Part shown: positions 810 to 44,498 of the stretch, piece by piece
How the letters are laid out: each line of letters starts with the position of its first letter
Position numbering within the stretch: position 1 is the stretch's first letter
Origin: an uncultured Faecalitalea sp.
GTDB lineage: Bacteria; Bacillota_I; Bacilli_A; Erysipelotrichales; Erysipelotrichaceae
Direction: 5' to 3'
Assembly (NCBI GenBank): GCA_946408025.1
Contig: CAMJQJ010000007.1
Coordinates: forward strand, 1 to 48,922
DNA length: 48,922 nt
Position numbers and translations under genes: made by a program
The notes under the pieces: model-generated
What the model saw: only the letters and a program-made list of their open reading frames with translations
Told to the model about the DNA's origin: nothing
Databases searched by the model: none

Positions 810-1853
810 ATGTTGAAATTAGGTGTTGTCTTTGGTGGACAGAGTAGTGAATATTCTGTTTCTTTACACTCTGTTGCTTCTTTTTTAAGACAGATTCATA
901 ATGAAAAATACGATATTACGATGATTGGCATTGACCAGAATGGGCAATTTTATGTTTATGATGGTTCGATTGATGATATAGAGCATGATCATTGGATTCC
1001 TCAGGCTACAAAAGCTGCGTGGGTTCATAAAGGAATCATGGCTTTGGATGGAAAAAATACAGTAAAAGAATTAGATTGTGTATTCCCGGTTTTACATGGA
1101 AAGAATGGGGAAGATGGTTGTGTACAGGGTTTATTGGAATTGATGAATATCCATTATGTTGGATGTGATGTTATGTCTAGTGCAATTTCCATGGATAAAG
1201 AAATCATGCATATTTTATGTGATGAAGCAAATATACCTTGCGCTGATTATGTTTGTTTAAAAGCAAATGAAGATAATCCTACTTTCGAAATGATCCAGGA
1301 AAAAATTTCACTACCTTGGATCGTAAAACCATGTAATGCGGGAAGCAGTTATGGTGTTCATAAAGTAGAGAATAAAGAAGAATTTGAAGAAGCTTGTAAA
1401 GATGCTTTCTTCTATGATGGTCGTGGTAAGATCCTAGTTGAAAAAGTAATTGAAGGCTTTGAGATTGGCTGTGCTGTTATGGGAAATGAAGAAGTATTTA
1501 CAGGTAGCTGTGATGAGATTCAGATTTCTGGAGGAATCTTTGATTTTGAAGGAAAATACGAAATGAAAGGGGCTGAAATCATCTGCCCTGCACGAATCGA
1601 TGAAGAAACTTTTACCAAGGCCAAAGAACTAGCAGCTAAAACATATAAAGCTATGAATTGTTGTGGAATGGCTCGGGTAGATATGTTTGTAACGTCTCAA
1701 AAAGATGTAATTTTAAATGAATTGAATACTATTCCGGGTTTTACAGCTACTTCACGTTATCCATCAATGATGAAAGCAGCTGGAATTGAATTTAGTGATT
1801 TAATTGATAAATTGATCGATCTAGCAATGCAAAGGACGATTTCAGCATGTTAA
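810..1853 (+). CDS. VanG-like D-Ala-D-Ser (or D-Ala-D-Ala) ligase
   Basis: This is an ATP-grasp D-alanyl-D-X ligase of 347 aa. Visible signatures are VFGGQSSEYSVSLHS at the N-terminus, FPVLHGKNGEDG, IVKPCNAGSSYG, and NELNTIPGF near the C-terminus. It resembles VanG throughout, for example VGCDVMSSAISMDKE and GFEIGCAVMG. Asp235, Phe244 and Arg316 fall where I recall VanG having Asp243, Phe252 and Arg324, its reported D-Ser determinants; the offset is a constant 8 residues. Ordinary D-Ala-D-Ala ligases usually carry a non-basic residue, often Leu, at the Arg position. The start has only a weak SD (GGAGAT) within the end of murF. The 3' end overlaps the racemase by 7 bp. D-Ser specificity is inferred from residues recalled from memory. 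Confidence 0.9.
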   Translation: MLKLGVVFGGQSSEYSVSLHSVASFLRQIHNEKYDITMIGIDQNGQFYVYDGSIDDIEHDHWIPQATKAAWVHKGIMALDGKNTVKELDCVFPVLHGKNGEDGCVQGLLELMNIHYVGCDVMSSAISMDKEIMHILCDEANIPCADYVCLKANEDNPTFEMIQEKISLPWIVKPCNAGSSYGVHKVENKEEFEEACKDAFFYDGRGKILVEKVIEGFEIGCAVMGNEEVFTGSCDEIQISGGIFDFEGKYEMKGAEIICPARIDEETFTKAKELAAKTYKAMNCCGMARVDMFVTSQKDVILNELNTIPGFTATSRYPSMMKAAGIEFSDLIDKLIDLAMQRTISAC

Positions 1854-2998: not shown

Positions 2999-4015
2999 AT
3001 GAAAGTAAAGAGAAAATATGCCGCAATTGATATTGCTAAATATGTTTCGGCATTATTGGTTGTATGCATTCATACATATCCGTTTTATGAAATTAGTGAA
3101 ACGTTTAATACGTTTTTTATGCAAACGATATGTCGAATTGCTGTACCATTTTTCTTTACGACTTCTGGTTTCTTCTTTTTTCGTAAATATGGCGATGATC
3201 CTGAAGAAAACACGAATAATCTGCGCAAATATATAATGCGCTTATTAAAGATTTATTTGATTTGGACCGTGATCTATCTTCCATATACAATATGGGATCA
3301 GTATCAGGCAGGGTTTAGTATTCTTGGTGTTTTCTCTTATATTCGAGATTTCTTCTTAAATGGAAGTTATTATCATCTATGGTTCTTACCAGCCTTGATG
3401 TTAGCAAGCGTGATCGTCTTCTATTTATATAAAGAAAAAGGTTTGATGTTTACCTTAAAGGTAAGCTTAGGTGCTTATTTTCTAGGTTATTTGATCAATG
3501 TTTATACACCAGTCTGGGAAAGCATTCCAGGAATTAACTTCTTGTTTGCGTTTTTTACAAAAACTTTAGTGACAGCACGAGATGGAATCTTCTTTGGGCC
3601 AATCTTTGTGGCTTTAGGGCTTTTGTTGGCGAAAACAGGACGTTTACCATCTAGAACAAGCCTAGGAGGCTTTGTAATTAGTTTTTTATTAGTGGTTGTG
3701 GAAGTGTTGATCTATAATATGACAGGCATATTGCGAGATTTAACGAGCATGTATTTGTTTTTGGTACCAGCAGTCTATTTCCTTGTAAATTGGTTGTTAA
3801 CAATCAAAATGCCATATAAACCAATTTATAGAGTATTAAGAAATGATTCGTTATTGATTTATACATCACATATTTTATTCGCAAAAATTTTATTGATATT
3901 GATGCCAAATGCACATATCGTTATTTATTTTTTGACAATTGCCCTAGCGCAGGCTTTTGCAAGTCTTGTGATGCATTATAAGGAAAGATTTCCTGTATTA
4001 GAAAATTTATTGTAG
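2999..4015 (+). CDS. Acyltransferase-3 family membrane protein, VanT N-domain-like
   Basis: This is a polytopic membrane protein of 338 aa with about ten hydrophobic segments. The N-terminus has DIAKYVSALLVVCIHTYPF, with the His typical of acyltransferase-3 proteins, followed by RIAVPFFFTTSGFFFFRKYG. Enterococcal VanT racemases carry just such a domain fused in front of the racemase, where L-Ser uptake has been proposed. Here the domain is a separate gene placed directly after the racemase, 3 bp downstream. The likeliest role is supplying L-Ser to the racemase or anchoring it at the membrane. O-acylation of an envelope polymer is the alternative. The family call is firm and the function is inferred from context. 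Confidence 0.8.
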   Translation: MKVKRKYAAIDIAKYVSALLVVCIHTYPFYEISETFNTFFMQTICRIAVPFFFTTSGFFFFRKYGDDPEENTNNLRKYIMRLLKIYLIWTVIYLPYTIWDQYQAGFSILGVFSYIRDFFLNGSYYHLWFLPALMLASVIVFYLYKEKGLMFTLKVSLGAYFLGYLINVYTPVWESIPGINFLFAFFTKTLVTARDGIFFGPIFVALGLLLAKTGRLPSRTSLGGFVISFLLVVVEVLIYNMTGILRDLTSMYLFLVPAVYFLVNWLLTIKMPYKPIYRVLRNDSLLIYTSHILFAKILLILMPNAHIVIYFLTIALAQAFASLVMHYKERFPVLENLL

Positions 4016-4018
4016 CTT

Positions 4019-5608
4019 ATGATTAGAGTATTTCAAGTTAAATGTGCATTTGAAAATGAGATTGAAGCACAGTTGATTAAAAAACTGCATATAAAAAAAG
4101 AAGATCTTTTGGGGTATACAATACACCGCAGAAGTGTGGATGCCCGCCATCAAAAGGTCTTATTTTCTTATGTCATAGACTGCTCATTAAAAAATGAGAA
4201 AAAAGTTTTAAAGAACAAAGATGTTCAACCTTGTCCGGATGAAACATATCATTTTGTTTCTAGTGGTAGTCGTATAATGAATACAAGACCTGTAGTCGTA
4301 GGATTTGGTCCAGCTGGCATGTTTGCATCATTAATCCTAGCTGAAGCAGGATATCAACCTATTGTAATTGAGCGTGGTAGTATGGTTTCTATTCGAAAAC
4401 AGAAGGTAGATACTTTTTGGCAAACGGGAAAGCTGGATCCAGAATGCAATGTTCAGTTTGGTGAAGGTGGTGCCGGAGCTTTCTCAGACGGCAAATTAAC
4501 GACGCGTTCTAAAGATTCAAGAGCACGAAAAGTTTTAGAAGAATTAGTTGGATTTGGCGCTAAAGAAGATATTTTGATCGATGCTCATCCACATATTGGA
4601 ACAGATGACTTTTTGAAGATCATTGAAAATTGTCGTAAAAAGATCATTGATCTCGGAGGAATGTTTTATTTTGATTCATGTTTAAAAGATATAAAAACAA
4701 AACAGAATAAATTGGTAGAAATTAAGATCAACCATACATGGATTCCATGTGAAAATATGATCTTAACAATTGGACATAGTGCAACTGACACGATACGAAT
4801 GTTACATCAAAATAGAGTCATGATGGAAAATAAACCATATGCGATTGGAGTTCGTATCGAACATAAACAAGAATACATAAACCGAGCAATGTTAAAAGAC
4901 TATGCTACGGATCCTAGATTGATTCCAGCAAGGTATCAGCTAACACATACAGCTTCCAATAATAAAGGTGTCTATACATTTTGTATGTGTCCAGGTGGGT
5001 ATGTCATTCCTTCCAGTAGTTCTAAAGAAAAACTTGTGGTCAATGGAATGAGCTATGCATCAAGAAGTGGAGAGAATGCTAATAGTGCTTTATTAGTACA
5101 GGTCAATGAAGAAGATTATGGAAGTGAACTTTTTGCCGGACTAAAGTATCAGGAAGACTTGGAAGAAAAAGCGTATCATATGGCCGGTGATTATAAAGTG
5201 TGTTTGCAATTGGCAAAAGATTATTTAGAGAATAAGGTTTCATCTGGTTTGGATGATGTAAAACCAACTTATGCCTTGGGATATCGATTCGTTAATTTAA
5301 ATGAATTATTTGATCCAGCAATCAATCAGGCGTTACATGAAGCCTTGATTGCCTTTGAAAAACGCGTGCCTGGGTTTGTAAGTGAAGGGGCTTTATTAAG
5401 TGCTGTTGAATCAAGAAGTAGTTCTAGTGTTCGAATTATTCGTGATCATGATCTTAAATCTAACATTCAAGGAATCTATCCTGGAGGTGAAGGAGCTGGA
5501 TATGCCGGTGGCATTATGACAAGTGCTATCGATGGAATAAAATGCGCAGAAAGTATTATTTGCCAATATCAAAAACATGATACAATGAAGCAGAAAATGG
5601 AGGGATGA
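4019..5608 (+). CDS. FAD-dependent dehydrogenase, COG2509-type
   Basis: This is a flavoprotein of 529 aa. An N-terminal domain of about 85 residues is followed by a Rossmann FAD-binding motif, VVVGFGPAGMFASLILAEAG, near residue 92. Next comes GEGGAGAFSDGKLTTR, a signature of the NAD(FAD)-utilising dehydrogenases related to the gidA/HI0933 group. Near the C-terminus GIYPGGEGAGYAGGIMTSA closes the FAD site. The physiological substrate is unknown to me. It starts 3 bp after the membrane protein and ends 1 bp before yqeG, so it is co-transcribed with the cell-wall and ribosome-assembly genes. Confidence 0.85.
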   Translation: MIRVFQVKCAFENEIEAQLIKKLHIKKEDLLGYTIHRRSVDARHQKVLFSYVIDCSLKNEKKVLKNKDVQPCPDETYHFVSSGSRIMNTRPVVVGFGPAGMFASLILAEAGYQPIVIERGSMVSIRKQKVDTFWQTGKLDPECNVQFGEGGAGAFSDGKLTTRSKDSRARKVLEELVGFGAKEDILIDAHPHIGTDDFLKIIENCRKKIIDLGGMFYFDSCLKDIKTKQNKLVEIKINHTWIPCENMILTIGHSATDTIRMLHQNRVMMENKPYAIGVRIEHKQEYINRAMLKDYATDPRLIPARYQLTHTASNNKGVYTFCMCPGGYVIPSSSSKEKLVVNGMSYASRSGENANSALLVQVNEEDYGSELFAGLKYQEDLEEKAYHMAGDYKVCLQLAKDYLENKVSSGLDDVKPTYALGYRFVNLNELFDPAINQALHEALIAFEKRVPGFVSEGALLSAVESRSSSSVRIIRDHDLKSNIQGIYPGGEGAGYAGGIMTSAIDGIKCAESIICQYQKHDTMKQKMEG

Positions 5609-5609
5609 G

Positions 5610-6134
5610 ATGGCTTTATTAAAACCGAAATACTATGTTTCCAGTTTTGAACATATGTCGATAGAGCGTTTAAAACAACAGGGAATCAAGCTATTATTAT
5701 GTGATATTGATAATACATTGGTTTCTTATGATGAAAAACATCCAAGTCCTTCTGTCGTTGCGTTCATTGATCGAGTGAAAAGTTCTGGAATCGAAGTTGC
5801 GCTTTGTTCTAATGCAACCAAAGAAAGGGCAACACGATTTTCTAAAGATCTAAATGTGTCTACAACTTATTACTTTTCTATGAAACCATTGCCGAAAAAT
5901 TTTATTCGAGCAATGAAAAAACATAATTTAAAAGCCAATCAGGTTGCCATTATCGGGGATCAGATGTTTACAGACATATTAGGTGGAAATCTTGCAGGAC
6001 TTTATACGATATTGACTGCGCCAATCGCAGTGAAAGATAGAGGCGTTACGAAAATCAATCGTTTCTTTGAAAATATTGTATATAAAGTATTAGAGCATAA
6101 AGGAGATTTTAAGAGAGGTGAATTCGATGACTAA
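5610..6134 (+). CDS. yqeG: YqeG family HAD phosphatase
   Basis: This is a HAD-superfamily IIIA phosphatase of 174 aa. The nucleophile motif is LLLCDIDNTLVSYD (DxD), the threonine/serine motif lies in VALCSNATKER, the conserved lysine in the KPLPKNF region, and the last acidic motif is IIGDQMFTDILGGNLAG. It is the usual first gene of the Bacillota block yqeG-yqeH-yhbY-nadD-yqeK-rsfS, which is conserved here apart from the absence of aroE. GGAGGG lies just before the start, and the 3' end overlaps yqeH. The in vivo substrate is not known; a ribosome-related role is suspected only from neighbours. Confidence 0.92.
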   Translation: MALLKPKYYVSSFEHMSIERLKQQGIKLLLCDIDNTLVSYDEKHPSPSVVAFIDRVKSSGIEVALCSNATKERATRFSKDLNVSTTYYFSMKPLPKNFIRAMKKHNLKANQVAIIGDQMFTDILGGNLAGLYTILTAPIAVKDRGVTKINRFFENIVYKVLEHKGDFKRGEFDD

Positions 6135-7206
6135 ATATTGTAAAGGGTGTGGCGCAAAGCTGCAAAATGATGATAAAGATGCAATCGGATATGTTCCTAC
6201 ATTGGATGCATCGTATTGTGAAAGATGTTTTCGAATTCGTCATTATGGAGATGTTACAATTTCCATGGCACAGAAAATCGAATCCAATCAAACGCTAGAT
6301 AAGATTGCCAAAGTCAAGGGAGTGATCTTTTGGGTGGTCGATCTTTTTGCATTTGAATCAAACATGATTTCTCGCTTGAATCAAAAATTGGACACCGATG
6401 AAATTGTCCTTGTCTTAACTAAACGTGATGTTCTCCCTAAAACATTAAGTGATAAAAAAATTCTAGAATTTGTCAATCGCCGTTTAGATGAAGAAGGTAT
6501 CAAAGTAAAAGATATCGTGATTTGTGGATATCTTTTAAAACATAATGAACAGTCAAAGGCATGCATTGATGAAATCTATTCCAAGATACAAATGTATCGT
6601 AAAGGAAGAGATATTGTCTTTATGGGAGTTGCCAATGCAGGGAAATCAACAATCTTAAATCAATTGCTGGCTATGGAAGATCTAACGACATCTAGACATC
6701 CTGGTACAACATTGGACCTTGTGCCAATTGAACAAGATGGATATACGATTTATGATACCCCGGGGATTGAGAATCATCATAGTGTATTGACTTTTTTGAA
6801 TTCAAAAGATCTAAAAATGGTTATTCCAACCAAACCTATCAAGCCTTTTGTTTCTCAGATTTATGAAGATCAATCTTTTGCGGCAGCTGGGCTTGCAAGG
6901 TTGGATATCGTAGTAAAAGGAAAAGCCAGTGTAGTAGGATATTTCTCCCGTTCTTTATCAATTCATAGAGGAAAATTGGAAAATGCGGATAATCTTTGGA
7001 ACAAACATTTAAATGAAATGCTGGTTCCTTGCCTTGATACTTCTATGTTGACAATGCATACATTTCAGGCGCCAAAAGTAACAAATGAAAAATTGGATGT
7101 CGTGATTCATGGGCTTGGATGGTTTTGCATAAGTGGGCAGATTCAAGATGTTTATGTTCGTGTTCATAAAGGCATCAATGTTACATTCAGAAAGGCGATG
7201 ATCTAA
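6127..7206 (+). CDS. yqeH: YqeH, circularly permuted GTPase for 30S assembly
   Basis: This protein of 359 aa has an N-terminal treble-clef zinc finger (CKGCGAKLQ ... CERCFRIRHY) and a circularly permuted GTPase. The G4 motif TKRD comes first, near residue 98, then G1 GVANAGKST and G3 DTPG. In Bacillus subtilis YqeH is needed for 30S subunit biogenesis. I chose ATG 6127, preceded by GAGAGG, over the in-frame GTG at 6118 used by the ORF track. The gene overlaps yqeG by 8 bp and its stop overlaps the yhbY start (TAATG), so translation of the block is probably coupled. Confidence 0.95.
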   Translation: MTKYCKGCGAKLQNDDKDAIGYVPTLDASYCERCFRIRHYGDVTISMAQKIESNQTLDKIAKVKGVIFWVVDLFAFESNMISRLNQKLDTDEIVLVLTKRDVLPKTLSDKKILEFVNRRLDEEGIKVKDIVICGYLLKHNEQSKACIDEIYSKIQMYRKGRDIVFMGVANAGKSTILNQLLAMEDLTTSRHPGTTLDLVPIEQDGYTIYDTPGIENHHSVLTFLNSKDLKMVIPTKPIKPFVSQIYEDQSFAAAGLARLDIVVKGKASVVGYFSRSLSIHRGKLENADNLWNKHLNEMLVPCLDTSMLTMHTFQAPKVTNEKLDVVIHGLGWFCISGQIQDVYVRVHKGINVTFRKAMI

Positions 7207-7496
7207 TGTTAAATAATAAAGATAAAAAATATTTACGAAAATTAAGCATGTCATATAGACCTCTTTTCCAAATTGGAAAAGATGGAATCAGCTATAATTT
7301 GATTAAAACAATAAGTGATTCTTTAGAAGCTCATGAGCTTGTCAAATGCAATTTGTTGCAGACATGTCCAATTGATACAAGAGAAGCGGCTATTGAGTGT
7401 GCCAGTAATACACATAGTGAGATCGTACATATTGTAGGACATACATTTGTATTGTATCGTCGCTCTAAAGAAAACAAGCTGGGGCTTAAAAAATGA
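7206..7496 (+). CDS. yhbY: YhbY family RNA-binding protein (CRM domain)
   Basis: This is a single CRM-domain protein of 96 aa. It opens with KYLRKLSMSYRPLFQIGKDGIS, the family's LR-x-G/K opening, and has a late HIVGHTFVLYRRSKEN segment. YhbY homologues bind pre-ribosomal RNA of the large subunit. The length is typical. The start ATG shares its A with the yqeH stop codon, and the end overlaps nadD by 4 bp (ATGA), so it is translationally coupled on both sides. Confidence 0.93.
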   Translation: MLNNKDKKYLRKLSMSYRPLFQIGKDGISYNLIKTISDSLEAHELVKCNLLQTCPIDTREAAIECASNTHSEIVHIVGHTFVLYRRSKENKLGLKK

Positions 7497-8509
7497 GGAT
7501 TGCGATCATAGGAGGGTCTTTTGATCCAATTCATTATGGTCATATCCATATGGGGCTGGAGTCAATTAAACAATTGAAGGTGGATGAAGTCTGGTTCATG
7601 CCTACAAAGATTACACCACTAAAAGATCGTGAATTGACCAGTGTTGAAGATCGTGTATCTATGATCAAGCTCGCAATTGAACCATACGCTAATTTCAAGC
7701 TTTGTACACTGGAATTAGAGCGTGAAGAGAAAAGTTATACGATCGACACATTAAGAGAGTTAAAGAAACGATATGCACATGAATTCTATTGGATCATTGG
7801 AAATGACCAACTTGAACAGTTTGATCGTTGGAAAGATCCAGAAAAACTAGTTAAAATGGCTCAGTTTATTTGCTTTGATCGAGATCATATGTTGACAAAG
7901 ACATCTTATGATATCAAAAGATTACATATGGAATGCATGCCGGTCTCTAGTTCTGAGATTCGTATGGGAAATAAATTGAATTATTTACCATTGAAGGTTT
8001 TAGATTATATATATGCGAACAGGTTATATGTTAAAGATTTTATAGCCAGTCGTGTACCTGAACATCGTTATAAGCATTCGCTATCTGTTGCCAAACTTTG
8101 TGAAGAGTTTGCCCAAAATAATGGCTTGGATATCAATGTGGCATATTATGTTGGCTTGTTTCACGATGTTTGTAAGGCGATGCCTAAAGATCGAATGTTA
8201 TGCTGGATCAAGGCTATTTGTCCAGAAAATGAAAAATATGCACCTCCGGTTTGGCATGGTTTTGTAGGGGCAGAAGTTGTAGATCGTATCTTTTATATCA
8301 AAGACTGGCGCATCAAAAACGCTATTTATCATCATGTGCTTGGAACAAGTAAAGATCCATACGCGATGGCAGTTTTTTGTGCAGACAAATTAGATCCGTT
8401 AAGAGATTATGATACTAGTAAAGGTATCCAGCTTTGTAACCAAGATCTATATAAAGGCTTTTTAAAGGTAAAAGAAGATAATGAGCGATATCTTAAGAAA
8501 GGAAAATAA
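7493..8509 (+). CDS. nadD: NadD-YqeK fusion: nicotinate mononucleotide adenylyltransferase + HD hydrolase
   Basis: This 338 aa protein contains two enzymes that are separate genes in B. subtilis. Residues 1 to about 187 are NadD, which converts NaMN to NaAD: IIGGSFDPIHYGH holds the HxGH nucleotidyltransferase motif, and MPVSSSEIR is the ISSTxIR-like motif. Residues 190-338 are a YqeK-type HD domain with HRYKHSLSVAKL, LFHDVCK, and late VFCADKLDPLRDY. YqeK proteins hydrolyse Ap4A. There is no stop or reading-frame break between the parts. Fusions of this type occur in some Mollicutes-related lineages. It supplies the NAD step downstream of nadABC, found at 29-32 kb. Confidence 0.93.
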   Translation: MRIAIIGGSFDPIHYGHIHMGLESIKQLKVDEVWFMPTKITPLKDRELTSVEDRVSMIKLAIEPYANFKLCTLELEREEKSYTIDTLRELKKRYAHEFYWIIGNDQLEQFDRWKDPEKLVKMAQFICFDRDHMLTKTSYDIKRLHMECMPVSSSEIRMGNKLNYLPLKVLDYIYANRLYVKDFIASRVPEHRYKHSLSVAKLCEEFAQNNGLDINVAYYVGLFHDVCKAMPKDRMLCWIKAICPENEKYAPPVWHGFVGAEVVDRIFYIKDWRIKNAIYHHVLGTSKDPYAMAVFCADKLDPLRDYDTSKGIQLCNQDLYKGFLKVKEDNERYLKKGK

Positions 8510-8510
8510 A

Positions 8511-8849
8511 GTGGAATTTAAAGAAATCGTATTAAAGGCAATTAGTGAGAAAAAGGGATTTGACATTAAAGAATATGATACGCGTAGCTTAACTCCATTT
8601 ATGGATAGCATGATCGTTGTAAGTACAACTAATATTCGTCAAAATAATGCGATAGCACAGAATATCAAGGATCGTTTAAAGGAAAATGGATTTGATGGTA
8701 CGATTCGTATCGAAGGAAATGCCGATTCAAAATGGCTTTTGATTGATCTAAAAGAAATTGTAGTACAGTTGTTTGTCAAGGATGAAAGGCAGGTGTATCA
8801 GCTGGATCGTTTGTATCGAGATGTTCCAGTAATTGAATATGATTTATGA
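8511..8849 (+). CDS. rsfS: RsfS ribosome silencing factor
   Basis: This 112 aa protein of the RsfS/YbeB/Iojap family binds L14 on the 50S subunit and blocks subunit joining in starvation. Visible family segments are DIKEYDTRSLTPFMDSMIVV, the conserved NAIA-type helix, EGNADSKWLLIDLKEIVVQLF, and YQLDRLYRD near the end. I placed the start at GTG 8511, preceded by AAAGGA, one base after the nadD/yqeK stop. The ORF-track ATG at 8481 has no SD and would overlap the upstream gene. It overlaps the methyltransferase by 11 bp. Confidence 0.93.
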   Translation: MEFKEIVLKAISEKKGFDIKEYDTRSLTPFMDSMIVVSTTNIRQNNAIAQNIKDRLKENGFDGTIRIEGNADSKWLLIDLKEIVVQLFVKDERQVYQLDRLYRDVPVIEYDL

Positions 8850-9540
8850 TACATTAGCGCAATATTATGATGCTTTAGTAAAAGATGAAGAGGCATCCAG
8901 AATGTGGGTGAATTGGATCGAATCCAAATGTAGCCCTTGCGATGTGCTTGAACTAGCCTGTGGCAGTGGAGAAATTACCGAAATGCTGGTACAGGATGGT
9001 TTTGATGTTTCTGCTCTTGATCTTTCTGATGAAATGATTGAACAGGCAAAACAAAAAGATACAGGCAACAAGATTCATTTTTATTGTCAGGATATGAAAG
9101 ATTTATCCAATTTTTCTAAATTTAGTGCAATCTTTTGTCTTTGTGACAGCTTTAATTACCTACTTGAAAAAGAAGAAGTTTCTAAATTTTTTAAAGAGGT
9201 CTCTGACCATTTAAAAAAACAAGGATATTTTTTCTTTGATACCCATTCGCTCGATCGCCTGGAAGAGTTTGAAGATGAGTTTAATGAAACAGGTTCTTTT
9301 GAAGACTGCGATTATCAATGGTCAATCATGAGTGAAGATGATCTAATCTATCAAGATTTTGCGTTTTATTTTCAGGAAGGACATGTTGTTCAAGAACATC
9401 ATATTCAAAGGGTGTATGATCCAGTCTGGCTAGAAAAAGAATTATCAAAACACTTTAATATTCTTTCTGTTAAAACAGATTTTGATCTTGAAGGAATTCA
9501 GGAAGGCGAAAAGTATTTTTATATTTGTCAAAAGAAATAA
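8839..9540 (+). CDS. Class I SAM-dependent methyltransferase
   Basis: This is a 233 aa Rossmann-fold methyltransferase. Motif I is VLELACGSGEITEML near residue 36, and the acidic end of strand 2 is SALDLSDEMIEQAKQK. FSAIFCLCDSFNYL marks motif IV. Genes like this commonly follow rsfS in Bacillota, but the substrate is unknown. I prefer ATG 8839 (MIYDTLAQYYD) over the track's TTG 8833 because YDxLAxYYDxL is the usual opening. It lacks a good SD and overlaps rsfS by 11 bp, which suggests coupled translation. Confidence 0.88.
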   Translation: MIYDTLAQYYDALVKDEEASRMWVNWIESKCSPCDVLELACGSGEITEMLVQDGFDVSALDLSDEMIEQAKQKDTGNKIHFYCQDMKDLSNFSKFSAIFCLCDSFNYLLEKEEVSKFFKEVSDHLKKQGYFFFDTHSLDRLEEFEDEFNETGSFEDCDYQWSIMSEDDLIYQDFAFYFQEGHVVQEHHIQRVYDPVWLEKELSKHFNILSVKTDFDLEGIQEGEKYFYICQKK

Positions 9541-11017: not shown

Positions 11018-12277
11018 ATGTTATTAAAAAATATCTCTGAAGAGGAATTTAGTAATTTTTATGATGAATATGAACAAAAATGCTTTTGGCAATCGACATC
11101 AATGGCTCATTTTGAATCTTCACATGGATGGAATGTTCATTATTTAGGCTTATATGATGAGAATGTGATTCGTGCAGCTACGATATTGATTTCTAAGAAA
11201 GTGATGGGGAAGTATGCTCTTTTTGAGGCATTGCGAGGATTTTTGATTGACTATGATGATCTTGACCTTGTGGACGCATTTTTAACAGAATTAAAAATAT
11301 ATCTTCACGATCATAATTGTTTATATATGAAAACCGATCCATATTGTGAATACCAGCCTCATGATAAAGAAGGGAATGCCCTAGAAGGTCATAAAAGAGA
11401 TGATCTAATAAATTTGTTTGAAAAACATGGCTTTATTCATCAAGGCTTTCGTAATGGGTCTGACAATAATTATGAACCACGTTGGATGTCTATACTGTCA
11501 TTGGAAGGTAAAGATGAAGACGGTATTTTGAAAAATTGTGATTCAAAGACTCGACAAAATATTGTCAACACACAAAAAACCGGCCTAAAAATAGACCGTC
11601 TGAACAAATCGGAGTTAAATCGTTTACATGATATGGTCTCTACAACCGGAGAACGACGTCATTTCATGAATCCGAATCTTTCCTACTATACAGATTTTAT
11701 GACGAGTTTCCATGAAAATATGCAGGCATATTGTGTGTATTTGGATACACGTGATTACTATGAACGTTACAAAAAGAATTATGAAGAACTTTTAAAGGAA
11801 AAAGACCACATATACAAACTAATTGAAGAAACGGATTCCAAAAAGAATCGTTCAAAACTAAAAAATTGTGAGAATAAGATCACAGCGACTTTAAAGCGAA
11901 TTGATGAAGCTAAAAAACTTAGGGATGAATATGGCGATAAGATTGATCTAGCGGCAGCTATGTATGTCATCAATGATCGTGAAATCGTATATTTATTTAG
12001 TGGATCTAATGATAACTTTAAACATTTCAAAGCTGCGTATGCCTTGCAGTGGCACATGATTAAATACGGTATTGAGCATCATATCAAGCGTTATAATTTT
12101 TATGGTATTAGCGGCATATTTTCACCTGATGATGAAGAATATGGAGTATATCTTTTTAAAAAAGGTTTTGATGCAGACGTTATCGAGCTCATAGGAAATT
12201 TTGAATATATAGATCGAAAAAAGACATTTACTGTTTATGAAGAACTAAGAAAAATCAAACATCTTGTACGAAAATAA
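11018..12277 (+). CDS. FemABX-family peptidoglycan interpeptide-bridge aminoacyltransferase
   Basis: This is a 419 aa Fem transferase, an enzyme that adds amino acids from aminoacyl-tRNA to the lipid-linked precursor side chain. It has two GNAT-like halves, with WQSTSMAHFESSHGW at the N-terminus and ILKNCDSKTRQNIVNTQKTGLKI in the middle. A lysine/glutamate-rich antiparallel coiled coil at about residues 245-310 is typical of FemA/FemX. The second half ends with GISGIFSPDDEEYGVYLFKKGF. The amino acid added cannot be told from sequence. It converges on, and overlaps by 23 bp, the serine-hydrolase-like gene on the other strand. Confidence 0.93.
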   Translation: MLLKNISEEEFSNFYDEYEQKCFWQSTSMAHFESSHGWNVHYLGLYDENVIRAATILISKKVMGKYALFEALRGFLIDYDDLDLVDAFLTELKIYLHDHNCLYMKTDPYCEYQPHDKEGNALEGHKRDDLINLFEKHGFIHQGFRNGSDNNYEPRWMSILSLEGKDEDGILKNCDSKTRQNIVNTQKTGLKIDRLNKSELNRLHDMVSTTGERRHFMNPNLSYYTDFMTSFHENMQAYCVYLDTRDYYERYKKNYEELLKEKDHIYKLIEETDSKKNRSKLKNCENKITATLKRIDEAKKLRDEYGDKIDLAAAMYVINDREIVYLFSGSNDNFKHFKAAYALQWHMIKYGIEHHIKRYNFYGISGIFSPDDEEYGVYLFKKGFDADVIELIGNFEYIDRKKTFTVYEELRKIKHLVRK

Positions 12278-13466
12278 CATCTTTTGATCCAGTAAGAGAT
12301 TTTTGGTAATCAAGTATGGTCTTGGATACTTCTTGCATCATGTCATACATTCGACTGACTTGATTCGAAAAGATAACAAGAATATAGTCTCTTCCAGGAA
12401 GATAAACAATTCCACCATCGTGATATAGTAGATCAGCAGCGCCTGTTTTATGGGCGAATTCAATACCTTTATCCAAGCCTGCTTGGATTTCATCACGATC
12501 TTCACATGCTTTTAAGATAGAAATCATGTCTTGGCAGGCTCTGTCTGATATGATTTCTTTTTTATATAATTTTTCAAAAAGAGTACCAATGTCTTTTGGA
12601 TTGGAAGTATTGCCTCCTCCATCGGTAAAGAAGTTCTCACCAGGAAGAAGTCCATGGTGAAGTTCTGTGTTTTCTAAGCCGAGTTCAATGCACATCTGAT
12701 TAACTTGATAAAGACCATAAACTCCATTGCCACCACCGAGCAAAGCAGCTAAATTATTGTATGCTGTATTGCTGCTGATGGTGATCATTTGTTCGATTTC
12801 AGTGGCATGAGCAGCATAATCTATATTTCCGTTCTCGATTTCTTGAAAGACTTTGATTAATGTAGGTACTTTGATCATGCAGCAAGGATACATATTTTTA
12901 GGATTAATATAAAAGGATTGGCTAGTGCGTAGATCTTTAAAATATACAGAGGTATCACCGTCATATTTTGACAGAACCTTTTGCACTTGCGCCTGGATTT
13001 CTTCAATATCAAAATCTACGTTTTGTTTGGTCTTTTTTCCATTTTTGTCGTAATAATCCAGATGCAGCTGTCCATCTTTTGAAAATGCTACATAAGTATC
13101 TTTTGCCATTTTTCCATTATTATCAAAATAGTATGTATGATTATTAATGGTTTGAAAGCTATATAGTTTATGGCCATTTTGACCATAATAATATGTGCTT
13201 TCTTTTTGTGTTACAAATCCCTTTTTCATAAATCCGGAATCCTCATCAAAATAATATGATTTACCATTGATTTCAAGATTTCCATGATGTAGGTGACCAT
13301 TTTGATCCACATAAACCATGATGGCATCTGAAAAGGGGAGAATTTGTACAAATCCTCTTTGGGTTGATAACCAGACACAAAACACAAGAATTAAGATTGA
13401 AAAGATTCCAACAGACAAATAGATTTTTCCAGTGAAATCCAAATGTAAAAACTTTTTTTGCTGCAT
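12255..13466 (-). CDS. Cell-wall-binding serine-hydrolase-like protein with Cys in place of the nucleophile Ser
   Basis: This 403 aa exported protein has a membrane anchor at residues 11-31, then at least three choline/glucan-binding-like repeats (NGKSYYFDEDSGFMKKGF). From about residue 160 it has a class A beta-lactamase-like (beta-lactamase2) domain. The SxxK motif reads Cys196-Met-Ile-Lys199, the SDN motif reads Ser231-Ser-Asn233, and the KTG box is intact at 340-342. No Glu166-type ExxLN loop is visible, so a beta-lactamase call is not justified. Its paralogue at 14715 has Ser and SDN. The protein may be a thiol variant, a binding protein or inactive. The start is supported by AGAGGTC. 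Confidence 0.85.
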   Translation of the reverse strand: MQQKKFLHLDFTGKIYLSVGIFSILILVFCVWLSTQRGFVQILPFSDAIMVYVDQNGHLHHGNLEINGKSYYFDEDSGFMKKGFVTQKESTYYYGQNGHKLYSFQTINNHTYYFDNNGKMAKDTYVAFSKDGQLHLDYYDKNGKKTKQNVDFDIEEIQAQVQKVLSKYDGDTSVYFKDLRTSQSFYINPKNMYPCCMIKVPTLIKVFQEIENGNIDYAAHATEIEQMITISSNTAYNNLAALLGGGNGVYGLYQVNQMCIELGLENTELHHGLLPGENFFTDGGGNTSNPKDIGTLFEKLYKKEIISDRACQDMISILKACEDRDEIQAGLDKGIEFAHKTGAADLLYHDGGIVYLPGRDYILVIFSNQVSRMYDMMQEVSKTILDYQKSLTGSKDVIFVQDV

Positions 13467-13556
13467 GAAAATGACCTCTTTTATTATATGTTATTATAAT
13501 ATTTAATTATTGTATCTAAAATCGAGATAAGTGGTCTTGTTTTGTACTTAACAGGT

Positions 13557-14705
13557 TTAATAGTCACCACCCTCTACATGTAGGTATTCTTCAAGAGTTA
13601 GTCCAGATTGATAAATATTTATAGCTTCACTTCCAATATATCGCACATGCCAAGGTTCTGCCATATAGCCGGTGATGCTTTCTTTACCACTTTGATAACG
13701 AACGATAAAACCATATTTATGAGCATTTTGAGCTACCCATTGAGCTTCATTAGGGCTTTCCAACAGAGCACCATTTGGTTGTATCAAATCAAAAGCCAAC
13801 CCGGTTTGATGTTCAGAATATCCAGGTCTTGCCGAGAATGTGTCGGCGCTTGCCTGACCATATGAGTTAACATAATTTTGATAAAGATTACTTTGATATT
13901 GATAACTACGATATCCGCTGTAGGAATTGCTAATTGAAAGTCCAAGACTTTGCATATCGGCAATCATTTTTTGTAGTTGAGATAAGGCCGTTGAATCTTC
14001 TTGAGAACCATAGTTTGCCGGTAATGGATGCTTCTTGTTAACAACGAGTATACCATTTACATAGTATGGTTCAATGGTGATTTGAGGTGTTGAAGGATTA
14101 TTTTGACTTTGTGTGGTTGAATTATTTTGATTAGAAGAAGTATCATTTTGATTTTCTTCATTTTGAATGACAATATTGAATTCTTTTGAAGTAGAATTAT
14201 TGTATTTATCTGTAGCTTTGATTTTGCCAATATATGTTCCAGGGGTGCTAAAATCAACATTTTGGGTATCAAAGCTTATAGAACATTCACTTAGATCTTC
14301 TACAATGAAATACTTAGAAAAATCATAATTGTTACCATTGAGAGCTATATCTATAGAATCTGAGGAAGTAGTGATTTTTGGCTTTGTTGTATCTTTTACT
14401 TTGATCGTTAGTGTTTTTGAGTGATCAATCAAAGCATGGTAAGTTAGCATAATTTTGTAAGTTCCAACAGCCGGATAATTTTTATCGGTTTCATTTTTGA
14501 TTTTAGATGTATCTAATTGAATATTTGTTGGTTCAATGAAAGATGAATTAAACAATTCTTTTGTATTAAGATTTATGGACTTTCCATATTCCATTGTATA
14601 AGATGTTTGTTTTAAGGAAGGCAAGGAAAAATAAATTGCCAAAGCAATGAGGATTATACAAATAGCTGTGCCTATACCAATATAAATTTTAGTATTTTTC
14701 TTCAT
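13557..14705 (-). CDS. VanY-like M15 D-alanyl-D-alanine carboxypeptidase with Ig-like domains
   Basis: This 382 aa membrane-anchored protein has a transmembrane segment at about 7-28 and one or two Ig/HYR-like domains at 45-185. A Ser/Asn/Gln-rich linker reaches residue 205, and a C-terminal zinc peptidase domain completes it. The VanY signature SARPGYSEHQTGLAFD supplies His299 and Asp306, and EPWHVRYIG supplies Glu350 and His353, so the metal site is complete. Family members trim the terminal D-residue from peptidoglycan stems. It starts 9 bp after the upstream serine-hydrolase-like gene, with SD AGAGGGA, so the two are probably co-transcribed. It could trim D-Ala- or D-Ser-ended stems. Confidence 0.92.
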   Translation of the reverse strand: MKKNTKIYIGIGTAICIILIALAIYFSLPSLKQTSYTMEYGKSINLNTKELFNSSFIEPTNIQLDTSKIKNETDKNYPAVGTYKIMLTYHALIDHSKTLTIKVKDTTKPKITTSSDSIDIALNGNNYDFSKYFIVEDLSECSISFDTQNVDFSTPGTYIGKIKATDKYNNSTSKEFNIVIQNEENQNDTSSNQNNSTTQSQNNPSTPQITIEPYYVNGILVVNKKHPLPANYGSQEDSTALSQLQKMIADMQSLGLSISNSYSGYRSYQYQSNLYQNYVNSYGQASADTFSARPGYSEHQTGLAFDLIQPNGALLESPNEAQWVAQNAHKYGFIVRYQSGKESITGYMAEPWHVRYIGSEAINIYQSGLTLEEYLHVEGGDY

Positions 14706-14714
14706 AGTATCCCT

Positions 14715-15950
14715 CTATTCTAAAGTGAATAAGTTTATTTCGTATGTATAGAATAAATTTGACATTTCTTTAAAAAAATCTGTTTTATTTGAAATTTGAT
14801 CTGTAAATAATACAAGAATATAATCTTTATCAGGAATGTACACGATACCACCATCTAGATATAGATCATAAGCCCATCCGGATTTATGAGCGAACTGTAT
14901 TGCATCAGGTAAACCTTGTCGAATCGCTCTTCGGTCAGCGCATTGTTTTAATAAATCTAACATCTGATCACATGCATCTTGCGAAATGATTTCGCCTTGA
15001 TACAATAAGTCAAATAATAAACCTATATCGCTAGGACAGCTGATGTTTGAACCGCTATCACTAAAATAGATATCACCGGGAGATAAACTATGATGCAGTT
15101 GTGTGTTCTGTAATCCTAGTTGCATCATATATGTATTTACAATTTGTAATCCTTTGATTCCATCTCCATTTCCTAACATGGTTATTAGGGCATTGTAAGA
15201 AGTATTATCACTGTGTATGATCATATTTTCTAAATAAGTTTGACAGGAATCATACTCTAATAAACCTTGATCTATATAGTTATATACAGTAACTAAAACG
15301 CAAACCTTGATGATCGAACATGGATAGAATGTATTATCATTGATGGAAATCTCTTGTTGTGTTCTTAAATCTTTAAAATATAAGCCGACATTCCCTTCGT
15401 ATTTATTAATGATAGTTTGAGCTTGCATTAAGAGCGTATCTTCGTCAATTAATAATTCACCGTATTCATTAAATATTTTTCCTTTGTATTGATTTGTTAC
15501 CATTTTTCCATCCTCATCAAAATATGATATCTGGTTCTTTTCATTTATTGAAATTTTCTTAAATTGATTCTTAACTTGTTTTCCATCTTCATAAAAATAG
15601 TAATAGTCATCTTCAATTCTATAGAATCCTTTTACCATGGTGCCATCTTTTTTGAAATAATAGGTATTGTCATCTATATCAGCAAAGCCAGTCTGCATGA
15701 CTCCAGTTTCTTCATCGAAATAGTAAGTTTGGCTTTCTATAGTATGGAATCCATAAAGAAAATTACCTTCTTTTGTCCTATAAACAATCTGGTCTTGTTT
15801 AAATATGTTTTTTGGCATAAAGCCAGATCGAGAAGAGGCAAACATAAAAGACAAAAGAAAAATGCCTATACATACAGAACATAATATGATTAAAACCTTT
15901 CTTTTCTTCTTTTTGCGCTCTTCACTCATAATGTTATTACTCTTATTCAT
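14715..15950 (-). CDS. Cell-wall-binding serine hydrolase (beta-lactamase-like fold), intact active-site motifs
   Basis: This 411 aa exported protein is a paralogue of the 12255 gene. It has a lysine-rich N-terminus, a transmembrane anchor near 19-40, and several cell-wall-binding repeats (YYFDEETGVMQTGFADIDDN). Its catalytic domain carries Ser212-Ile-Ile-Lys215, Ser247-Asp-Asn249, and a Lys-Ser-Gly box in FAHKSGWAY. A class A Glu166 loop is not evident, so it may be a peptidase, esterase or penicillin-interacting protein rather than a beta-lactamase. The ATG at 15950 directly abuts a TATAAT. The next in-frame ATG, at 15929 (MSEERKKKK), is an equally likely start. A vanY-like gene follows in the same unit. 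Confidence 0.83.
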   Translation of the reverse strand: MNKSNNIMSEERKKKKRKVLIILCSVCIGIFLLSFMFASSRSGFMPKNIFKQDQIVYRTKEGNFLYGFHTIESQTYYFDEETGVMQTGFADIDDNTYYFKKDGTMVKGFYRIEDDYYYFYEDGKQVKNQFKKISINEKNQISYFDEDGKMVTNQYKGKIFNEYGELLIDEDTLLMQAQTIINKYEGNVGLYFKDLRTQQEISINDNTFYPCSIIKVCVLVTVYNYIDQGLLEYDSCQTYLENMIIHSDNTSYNALITMLGNGDGIKGLQIVNTYMMQLGLQNTQLHHSLSPGDIYFSDSGSNISCPSDIGLLFDLLYQGEIISQDACDQMLDLLKQCADRRAIRQGLPDAIQFAHKSGWAYDLYLDGGIVYIPDKDYILVLFTDQISNKTDFFKEMSNLFYTYEINLFTLE

Positions 15951-17142: not shown

Positions 17143-17153
17143 ATCTGTGCACA

Positions 17154-17240
17154 TTATCAAGAGATGGGTTAGAGAGTTAGCTCGAAGATCCCACACCAAC
17201 CTGATTCGAAAATTAAGGTGGTCCCGCTAACAACGATAAG
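17154..17240 (+). ncRNA. SAM-I (S-box) riboswitch
   Basis: The conserved frame of an S-box aptamer is present. P1 is formed by TTATC (17154-17158) and GATAA (17235-17239). The 5' strand continues AAGAGATGGG, the central element is CACCAACCTGA, and the 3' strand is AAGGTGGTCCCGC then GATAAG. It lies directly upstream of metK, the SAM synthetase, which is the classical target. Binding of SAM should stabilise P1 and free the downstream terminator. Confidence 0.87.
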
Positions 17241-17284
17241 AAGTATAAATAATTACAACATACTTCTTAGAGTATGTTTTTTTT
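17239..17284 (+). terminator. S-box expression platform: antiterminator/terminator switch
   Basis: AGAAGTAT (17239-17246) can pair over eight bases with ATACTTCT (17260-17267) as an antiterminator. Alternatively ACATACT (17258-17264) pairs with AGTATGT (17271-17277), followed by eight T residues, as a terminator. The antiterminator uses the 3' edge of P1, so the two folds exclude each other. Confidence 0.85.
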
Positions 17285-27525: not shown

Positions 27526-29109
27526 ATGAAGAAAATAATTGGAAGAATAGCGGCAATTGTCATTGTACTGGGATTAGTTGGTGGCATCGTTTACTGGAAG
27601 ACTTTGCCTGAAGAAAATGTTTCCATAGAAACGATTTATACCGAAGAATATCAAAATGAGGTTGCTGATGAACTAGAATCAAAGAAATCACTAAATGATT
27701 ATGATGAAGATAATATGTTGATTGAATATAATCCATTCAAGACGAATACTTTATCGCTTTATGTTTATTTTAATACTGAAGATGCCACAAAAGTATCTTA
27801 TACAGTGAAGGCACCGAAAACAGACTATGAAGATTTTAGTGCTACTGTAGATGGTAGCTTTCGAACAGAACATGAATTTCAAGTTCTTGGTTTGATCCCT
27901 GATACATTAAATGAGGTTGAGTTTACAATAGAAGATGAAGAGGGAAATACAATTTCACGAATATATGAATATACTACATCCTCTCTTCTAGGAAACGAAG
28001 ATGTTCAACTTGAAGAAATGGACAGTACGGTGGATTCTGTAGAAATTGGAAATGGATTATTTGCCTTTATGGGGAATGATAGTGATGAACAGGATTTCAT
28101 GTATTACTATGATGAAAATGGTGTGATTCGTGGTGAAATACCAATTCTTGGGTATCGCAGTCATCGTTTGTTGTTTGAAGATGGTTTAATGTATTTTAGT
28201 GTTTCCGAAAGTAAGATGGTAGCGATGAACGGATTAGGCCAAATCGAAAAAATATATGATTTAGGACAATATGAACTGCATCATGACTACGTGTTTGATA
28301 ACGATGGAAATATTTTGATCTTGGCCTCTGATACAGAATCCGATACTGTGGAAGATCGAATTATCTTGTTGGATGTAGAAACAAAAGAAGTAAGTGAAGT
28401 CTTGGATCTTGAGGATTTATTTGGTTCATATAAAGAGATGACCACACATGCTGAAGATGAAGACTGGGATTGGATGCATATCAATACGCTTCAATGGTTG
28501 CCAGATGGTAGTGCAATCTTGAGCTCAAGAGAAACAAGTACGATCATTAAGATCAATGATCTGGAAACAAATCCAAGCATTGATTATTTGATCGGGGAAG
28601 AATCATTCTGGAGCGATACTGAGTATGCGGATTATTTGTTAACGCCAACGAGTGAATTCTCCAACACAGGTGGACAGCATTCTGTGACATATATGAGCGA
28701 TGACTCTTTAGAAGAGGGCCAATATTATCTATACTTATTCAATAATAATTATGGAGTTAGCTCAACACGCAGTGATTATGATTGGACACAGATTGAAGGT
28801 ATTGAAACAAAATTAGCTACAGAAGGAGATACTGATGTTGATAGTGTATCTTACTTCTATCAATATTTAGTAGATGAAAATGAAGGAATATATTCTTTAG
28901 TACAATCTTTTGAGATTCCTTATTCAGGAATTGTGAGCAGTGTTCAAAGAGTTGATGATTATATTATTACAGATTCAGGCATGCAAGGTGTACTAGGTAT
29001 ATATGATGCTCAGGGAAATCTATTAAAACAGTATAAATCAATGTTGAACAAGAAATATATTTATCGTATTTACTATTATGATTTTGATGGATTCTACTTT
29101 AATATTTAA
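27526..29109 (+). CDS. Membrane-anchored arylsulfate sulfotransferase-like protein
   Basis: This 527 aa protein has an N-terminal signal anchor (about residues 7-24, no lipobox Cys). A beta-rich domain reaches about residue 155, and a beta-propeller follows. It matches the arylsulfotransferase (AssT) family. His252/253 lie in YELHHDYVFDNDGNIL. His318 lies in DWDWMHINTLQWLPDGS, Arg335 in SSRETSTIIKI and His385 in GGQHSVTYM. These line up with the His, His, Arg and His set reported for E. coli AssT, where the last His carries the sulfuryl group. Such enzymes move sulfate between phenols outside the cell. The gene stands alone between two terminators, without a DsbA/DsbB-type partner. Confidence 0.8.
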   Translation: MKKIIGRIAAIVIVLGLVGGIVYWKTLPEENVSIETIYTEEYQNEVADELESKKSLNDYDEDNMLIEYNPFKTNTLSLYVYFNTEDATKVSYTVKAPKTDYEDFSATVDGSFRTEHEFQVLGLIPDTLNEVEFTIEDEEGNTISRIYEYTTSSLLGNEDVQLEEMDSTVDSVEIGNGLFAFMGNDSDEQDFMYYYDENGVIRGEIPILGYRSHRLLFEDGLMYFSVSESKMVAMNGLGQIEKIYDLGQYELHHDYVFDNDGNILILASDTESDTVEDRIILLDVETKEVSEVLDLEDLFGSYKEMTTHAEDEDWDWMHINTLQWLPDGSAILSSRETSTIIKINDLETNPSIDYLIGEESFWSDTEYADYLLTPTSEFSNTGGQHSVTYMSDDSLEEGQYYLYLFNNNYGVSSTRSDYDWTQIEGIETKLATEGDTDVDSVSYFYQYLVDENEGIYSLVQSFEIPYSGIVSSVQRVDDYIITDSGMQGVLGIYDAQGNLLKQYKSMLNKKYIYRIYYYDFDGFYFNI

Positions 29110-33760: not shown

Positions 33761-33767
33761 TAGGGTG

Positions 33768-33840
33768 CTTATATTACTGACGGAAAAAGTGGAACTGACC
33801 ACATGGAAGTATAAGAGTTTAAATGCCGTCCGTCTGGGCA
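33768..33840 (+). ncRNA. ZTP (pfl motif) riboswitch
   Basis: P1 is CTTATA/TATAAG (33768-33773 with 33810-33815). ACTGACGG, the GTGG/CCAC hairpin and GGAAG make the first domain. The second is the hairpin TGCC...GGGCA containing CCGTCTGGGC, the hallmark 3' motif. The loop CCGTC can pair with GACGG (33779-33783) as the pseudoknot that forms the ZTP site. ZTP accumulates when 10-formyl-THF is short. A link to pyruvate formate-lyase, a formate source, is the context that named the motif. Confidence 0.85.
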
Positions 33841-33865
33841 GCCATAGAAAAGACAGGAGGACAAC

Positions 33866-42140: not shown

Positions 42141-42489
42141 GTCTGAATCTAGACAGTCGCTGGCGTTTAGCTAGAGGAAAGTCCATGCTCGCACGATCTG
42201 AGATGATCGTAGTGTTTGTGCTAGATGAATAAATAAGTCTAGGCAGGTCCCAACCTGACGGCTGTCGATTTTCCTAAGGGAAACTATGGAAATAGACTAT
42301 AAAAGTGCCACAGAGACGAGACAATATGGAAACATATTGGGTGGAACGGGTAAACCCCGCAAGCGAGAAACCCAAATTTGGTAGGGGAGTCAGCTGGATT
42401 GAAATGAAATGAAGGCTGGATAACGAAAGTTATAGATAAATGACTGTCACTGACTTGTCAGAACAGAACATGGCTTATTGATTCAGATG
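42141..42489 (+). ncRNA. rnpB: RNase P RNA
   Basis: The conserved 5' core GAGGAAAGTCCATGCTCGCAC is present. So are AGTGCCACAGAGACGAGAC, GGTGGAACGGGTAAACCCCGCAAGCGAGAAACC, and the 3' core AGAACATGGCTTA. The termini pair as P1 (CTGAATC with GATTCAG). The length of about 349 nt is ordinary for a bacterial RNase P RNA. It lies 8 bp after gpsB and ends before a terminator. Confidence 0.95.
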
Positions 42490-44372: not shown

Positions 44373-44404
44373 AAGGATCATTACAAAAATATCAAATACT
44401 TTCA

Positions 44405-44488
44405 TAGACTCCCTACGCTAGCATTACCTAGTTCAGGTCATAAGGGACCGTTATCATAACATCTCAGCCAAAATTGGCGCCCCTGTCT
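44405..44488 (-). ncRNA. TPP (THI-box) riboswitch
   Basis: The minus strand reads GGGGCGCC, then GGCTGAGAT in the J3-2 pyrimidine pocket. It continues GACCTGAACTAGGTAATGCTAGCGTAGGGAGTC, the complete THI-box core. It lies upstream of the thiamine transporter gene, so TPP should switch the gene off. Confidence 0.95.
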
Positions 44489-44498
44489 TGACAGTTCT

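Follow-up and report, generated by a model that had tools for sequence, protein, structure and literature searches.

A murF-linked VanG-like ligase cassette in Faecalitalea and its relatives, a probable housekeeping route to a D-Ala-D-Ser cell wall

What ends the peptidoglycan stem of a gut bacterium whose chromosomal ligase resembles a vancomycin-resistance enzyme is the question raised by the first genes of the stretch of DNA analysed here. This stretch of 48,922 nucleotides (the window) spans one entire contig from the metagenome-assembled genome (MAG; 1.53 Mb, 79% complete) of an uncultured Faecalitalea sp. Of the named species, Faecalitalea cylindroides is the closest to it (97% identity in the ligase). 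The contig begins inside murF, the gene of the UDP-MurNAc-tripeptide:dipeptide ligase: its 3' part occupies positions 1-804 of the forward strand (TIGR01143 positions 156-418 at C7:1-792) and its 5' part is on another contig of the assembly, C12 (TIGR01143 positions 1-173 at C12:33314-33835). The gene of the ligase starts at 810 on the same strand and overlaps by 7 nt a racemase gene (1847-2995, forward), and after a further 3 nt a gene for an AT3 membrane protein begins (2999-4015, forward), which makes the operon a tight one. The genes that follow at 4019-9540, also on the forward strand, are housekeeping genes (FAD protein, yqeG, yqeH, yhbY, nadD-yqeK, rsfS and a methyltransferase). No vanRS, vanXY or vanH was found among the genes adjoining the ligase operon, and the scan of window proteins revealed no mobile-element family. 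The sequence-only reading that preceded this analysis had placed the ligase in a murF housekeeping operon without mobile DNA, and both the tight murF-ligase spacing and the scan of the window proteins bear this out.

The ligase ORF (810-1853) starts with ATG and encodes 347 amino acids, for which the top match in PDB is VanG (4fu0, E 9e-89). The two sequences align without a single gap from approximately residue 205 to 340, and this gap-free alignment to the solved VanG chain, rather than a superposition, puts Asp235 (codon 1512-1514), Phe244 (codon 1539-1541) and Arg316 (codon 1755-1757) on VanG Asp243, Phe252 and Arg324, respectively, i.e., at the constant offset of 8 that the sequence-only reading had proposed; its VanG numbering agrees with the 4fu0 chain positions. 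The same three residues (D/F/R) are kept in the ligases of 17 out of 17 named relatives, whereas ordinary ligases (Salmonella DdlA and an Agrobacterium Ddl in a control alignment, and the Ddls of the order) have G/Y/M, and thus the triple is not due to chance. In particular, where a housekeeping Ddl has Tyr in the omega loop and Leu or Met at the Arg site, this ligase has Phe and Arg. The triple had been read as a set of D-Ser determinants, which holds as far as the match to VanG and the difference from ordinary ligases are concerned; however, the D-Ala:D-Lac ligases VanA and VanB carry D/F/R in the control alignment as well, so the triple is a mark of a Van-type, non-D-Ala:D-Ala ligase and, taken alone, is no mark of D-Ser use. 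The assignment of D-Ser therefore depends on the omega loop, the racemase and the absence of an adjoining vanH. The omega loop of the ligase (DFEGKY) is similar to that of VanG (DYTEKY), while the VanA and VanB loops are unlike it and lack GKY. Among NCBIfam models the VanG one scores highest (408 bits, compared with 367 and 313 for D_ala_D_ala, 304 for VanC, 302 for D_ala_D_lac and 280 for VanL), although this is below the curated cut-off of the VanG model NF000091 (495 bits), and the ligase, approximately 44% identical to VanG, forms a branch separate from it. We thus consider it a predicted VanG-like, D-Ala:D-Ser-type ligase.

The genes downstream of the ligase make the case stronger than the sequence-only reading, which missed both of them, could know, because they resemble the two halves of VanT, and we regard the presence of a VanT-like racemase and a putative VanT membrane half beside the ligase as the decisive evidence. 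The racemase (1847-2995), a predicted cytoplasmic catalytic subunit of serine/alanine specificity, has VanTG (4ecl) as its top PDB match and vanT-G-Cterm as its best NCBIfam model (425 bits versus 325 for alr; the cut-off of the VanT-G model NF033131 is 460). The catalytic Lys and Tyr are conserved, and Asn, within the motif TINNETMS, occupies the site of VanTG Asn696 and Alr Tyr354, as it does in 17 out of 17 named relatives. This site was shown to govern substrate choice (PMC4517790, PMC3485190): E. gallinarum VanT also has Asn there (PMC3485190), and a change of Gln to Tyr in a related racemase lowers its activity on L-Ser (PMC4517790). The membrane part of a VanT may be fused to the racemase or stand alongside it, and here it is the separate adjacent AT3 gene, the best NCBIfam model for which is the membrane part of vanT-CELN (132 bits). 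Another AT3 protein encoded in the MAG reaches 70 bits, and further AT3 proteins of relatives gave no VanT match. By analogy with VanT, serine supply or acyl transfer may be proposed as the role of the AT3 protein.

The order murF-ligase-racemase-AT3 was found in all 17 named loci examined, which include those of Faecalitalea, Holdemanella, Faecalicoccus, Floccifex, Catenisphaera, Absicoccus and Ileibacterium. The idea of a D-Ser wall was made conditional on this ligase being the only one, and a PF07478 search for a second ddl supports that: one true ligase was found in each of 14 clade genomes, i.e., in this MAG, 79% complete as it is, and in 13 others, the weaker matches (30-51 bits) being ORFs of the size of carbamoyl-phosphate synthase (carB) or biotin carboxylase. 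In this MAG and in near-complete relatives the linked racemase is the only Alr-type racemase, and the other PF01168 matches are mostly YggS-type proteins of approximately 210 amino acids. In 13 near-complete genomes that have only this cassette, the ligase, the racemase and MurF are each encoded solely in it; all 13 have a single MurF and no second MurF-Ddl cassette.

Such a second cassette does exist in the family. Among 171 Erysipelotrichaceae genomes at least 90% complete, approximately 21 have only the VanG-like type of ligase, approximately 18 have it together with an ordinary, EL-type Ddl, and most others have the EL type only; in the dual genomes tested, a second, divergent MurF is encoded beside the EL-type Ddl. 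Thus, there are two alternative murF-ddl cassettes in Erysipelotrichaceae, which occur singly or together. Both have murF and the ligase gene adjacent to each other, but the second one lacks D/F/R and is associated with an ordinary Alr, the racemases being of the Tyr type in most genomes that have only this cassette. The alternation is seen even within a genus (g64), where the VanG-like cassette is accompanied by a VanT-like racemase in two species, and the MurF-Ddl alternative by an ordinary racemase of the Alr type in three. In the course of this survey we also noticed MurF-ligase fusion ORFs of 785-812 amino acids (L048:4678-7032, L158:109-2532, L273:807-3242, L274:854-3289) and two genomes, G017 and G144, with no ligase or racemase match at 98-99% completeness; congeners of G144 have both genes, and a wall-less state, divergent sequence or masked sequence may be the reason. 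The VanX/VanY content was dropped as a marker, VanY-family genes being present in 20 out of 20 genomes searched.

If the ligase and the racemase serve the same chemistry, their specificity residues may be expected to change together. In 83 adjacent ligase-racemase pairs (82 distinct ones; one gene lies on two loci) Phe in the ligase is accompanied by Asn in the racemase 67 times and by another residue 7 times, while Tyr is accompanied by Asn in no pair and by another residue in 8. Fisher's test, a statistic that ignores kinship, gives p of 2e-7; correction for kinship leaves 3 independent changes, of which 2.5 run in the same direction and none in the opposite one, and this is not significant (p of 0.25). 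The coupling is consistent but falls short of proof. One relative (G161, from the genus that holds Floccifex; L258:6712-8918) has an intact cassette in which the ligase Phe is replaced with Tyr, as in ordinary Ddl, and the racemase Asn is replaced with Tyr, with TAT codons at both sites where relatives have TTT or TTC (ligase) and AAT (racemase). Its ligase is nested within the clade (SH-aLRT of 100 for a set of 24 ligases and 95 for 22), so the paired change is best read as a return to alanine use. G161 retains the AT3 gene, and the AT3 protein is thus not strictly tied to D-Ser. Two further sets of loci show other combinations: murF-linked ligases with Y/Y/L or F/Y/L accompanied by racemases with Asp, Ser or His at the specificity site (L028, L029, L275 and L276 from G027, G024, G192 and G197), and, in the genus g62 (L256, L257, L267, L268), a D/F/R ligase beside a racemase fusion of 611-619 amino acids that has an additional N-terminal part and Pro at the specificity site.

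From the gene content and order, the key residues and their coupled states in relatives, the single-copy status and the conservation we infer enzyme specificity, wall composition and drug phenotype, and the reading that we find probable is that a D-Ala-D-Ser wall, made constitutively as a housekeeping function, is the normal wall of this organism. The racemase would convert L-Ser to D-Ser and, because no other alanine racemase was found, would also make D-Ala; the ligase would join D-Ala and D-Ser, and the MurF encoded just upstream would load the dipeptide on UDP-MurNAc-tripeptide, while the AT3 protein may aid D-Ser supply or another step. In a constitutive housekeeping pathway, as distinct from inducible resistance, no VanXY would be needed to clear D-Ala-D-Ala. 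As a side effect, vancomycin would bind less well, and a low level of intrinsic resistance would be expected. The sequence-only reading had arrived at such a wall from the ligase; the sole ligase, the VanT-like racemase and the AT3 gene now support it, while the wall structure and the weakened binding keep the conditional form in which they were put forward. Against this reading stand the scores of ligase and racemase below the curated cut-offs, the D/F/R triple shared with D-Lac ligases, the lack of significance of the coupling after correction for kinship, the seven Phe ligases beside racemases without Asn, the AT3 gene retained in G161 and the 79% completeness of the MAG. VanTG is also reported to prefer L-Ala, and the D-Ala pool could thus compete with D-Ser.

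The same consideration leads to the alternative that has to be weighed most carefully, namely that the enzymes are relaxed or ancestral ones able to use serine, that a larger D-Ala pool makes the wall mainly D-Ala-D-Ala, and that the residues reflect ancestry shared with the Van enzymes. A 2015 study in mBio reportedly found that VanTG-type racemases act on Ala too, the phylogeny-corrected test of coupling is underpowered, and many of the genomes with both cassettes have a single Asn-type racemase, which must provide the ordinary Ddl with D-Ala as well. Yet the combination of Phe and Asn is kept at ligase identities down to approximately 40-50%, G161 and the clade of F/Y/L and Y/Y/L ligases are without both residues together, and the cassette-only genomes kept the VanG-like cassette rather than the alternative one. 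There is also a precedent in Clostridium innocuum, for which PMC8888209, citing David et al. 2004, gives serine-ended precursors and a vancomycin MIC of 4-16 mg/L, in agreement with what the sequence-only reading had stated about its precursors. We therefore hold relaxed specificity to be unlikely, though deserving of attention.

The other two alternatives concern the identity of the genes. A D-Ala:D-Lac ligase similar to VanA or VanB would also have D/F/R, but a VanG-like omega loop with the GKY that is missing from VanA and VanB, the lower D_ala_D_lac score and the presence of a racemase and AT3 gene where a vanH might adjoin make this identity extremely improbable, and it was rejected on the omega loop and the lack of a linked vanH. 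That a vancomycin-resistance cluster was acquired and inserted into the chromosome is suggested by the VanG- and VanT-like character of the single genes, which resistance scanners label as such, and by one vancomycin-related gene reported in each of five Erysipelotrichaceae isolates (PMC8063399). In relatives, canonical van clusters include a VanY-family gene (approximately 250 amino acids); here, the adjoining genes include no vanRS, vanXY or vanH, the scanned window proteins no mobile-element family, the murF-linked order is the same across many genera and the cassette is the sole source of ligase, racemase and MurF. An acquired or inducible vanG-type cluster was thus rejected on synteny, sole-copy status and the lack of mobile-element families in the scanned proteins and of adjoining VanXY and VanRS, and we consider it highly improbable.

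The locus differs from known systems in several respects. As in the VanG cluster (VanG, VanXY, VanT), there are the ligase determinants, the racemase Asn and an AT3-type membrane part, and 4fu0 and 4ecl are the closest structures; unlike it, the locus has no VanXY or VanRS, the VanT is split with the racemase preceding the membrane part, and the genes are joined to the murF operon. D-Ser chemistry would be shared with the intrinsic or acquired VanC and VanL clusters, and VanL likewise has separate membrane and racemase subunits, but VanC and VanL genes belong to van clusters of hosts that also have a Ddl of their own, and their models score lower here. C. innocuum is also a related gut organism with chromosomal genes, and it combines serine-ended precursors with low-level intrinsic resistance; the present system, known from genes, differs in being apparently the only route and in having a MurF of its own and an AT3 protein encoded separately. 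No vancomycin MICs for Faecalitalea or Holdemanella were found in the literature searched. Merdibacter massiliensis, a member of the same family, was reported to be vancomycin-susceptible although teicoplanin-resistant (PMC6538751), which counts against the D-Ser reading to the extent that this species has the cassette.

The cassette may extend to a pathogen. The genus g61, with many closed genomes of 1.7-2.4 Mb (L259-L266, L278), has murF, a D/F/R ligase and an Asn racemase in this order and a single ligase. The 16S genes of genome G152 match, 407 bases apart, the Erysipelothrix PCR primers MO101 (one mismatch) and MO102 (exactly), and on this basis the genus is probably Erysipelothrix. Vancomycin resistance is intrinsic to Erysipelothrix, with an MIC of 32 mg/L and a cause said to need further work (PMC9637936); MICs of 64-256 were given elsewhere (PMC12837339). 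The cassette of this genus is thus a lead, a candidate cause of that resistance. A broader proposition, which we put forward as speculative, is that in a broad set of Erysipelotrichaceae, Erysipelothrix included, the stem normally ends in D-Ser and in nothing else, by way of a dedicated MurF-ligase-racemase-AT3 cassette for which a D-Ala cassette can be exchanged; the resistance of Erysipelothrix would thereby be explained, and such operons, predating antibiotic use, may be the source of vanG-type genes.

D-Ser walls, VanG-like ligases, VanT-like racemases and C. innocuum as an intrinsic case are already known. Within the literature searched, the finding of a murF-linked cassette of four genes as sole route in many gut genera, of an alternative between two cassettes, of a paired reversal in G161 and of a probable extension to Erysipelothrix appears to be new. 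If the proposed wall is confirmed, the common gut commensals Holdemanella, Faecalitalea and Faecalicoccus would share a wall chemistry hitherto seen as drug resistance or as peculiar to C. innocuum, scanners for resistance genes would be reporting housekeeping genes as acquired vancomycin resistance, and these three genera should be spared by oral vancomycin. The same residues in the probable Erysipelothrix genomes offer a testable answer for the vancomycin resistance of a pathogen of animals and humans. The conserved stand-alone AT3 gene is a natural setting for probing the AT3 half of VanT, the role of which was raised as a question in recent papers (PMC9558356, PMC12423673).

Elsewhere in the window, a FemAB-type gene, two choline-binding proteins of the beta-lactamase family and a VanY-family carboxypeptidase (11018-15950) may form a wall-modification cluster. 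SAM-I/IV, ZTP and TPP riboswitches and a class B RNase P RNA are located at 17149-17262, 33763-33846, 42144-42482 and 44393-44494, and an arylsulfotransferase (ASST) is encoded at 27526-29109 in this Gram-positive gut bacterium.
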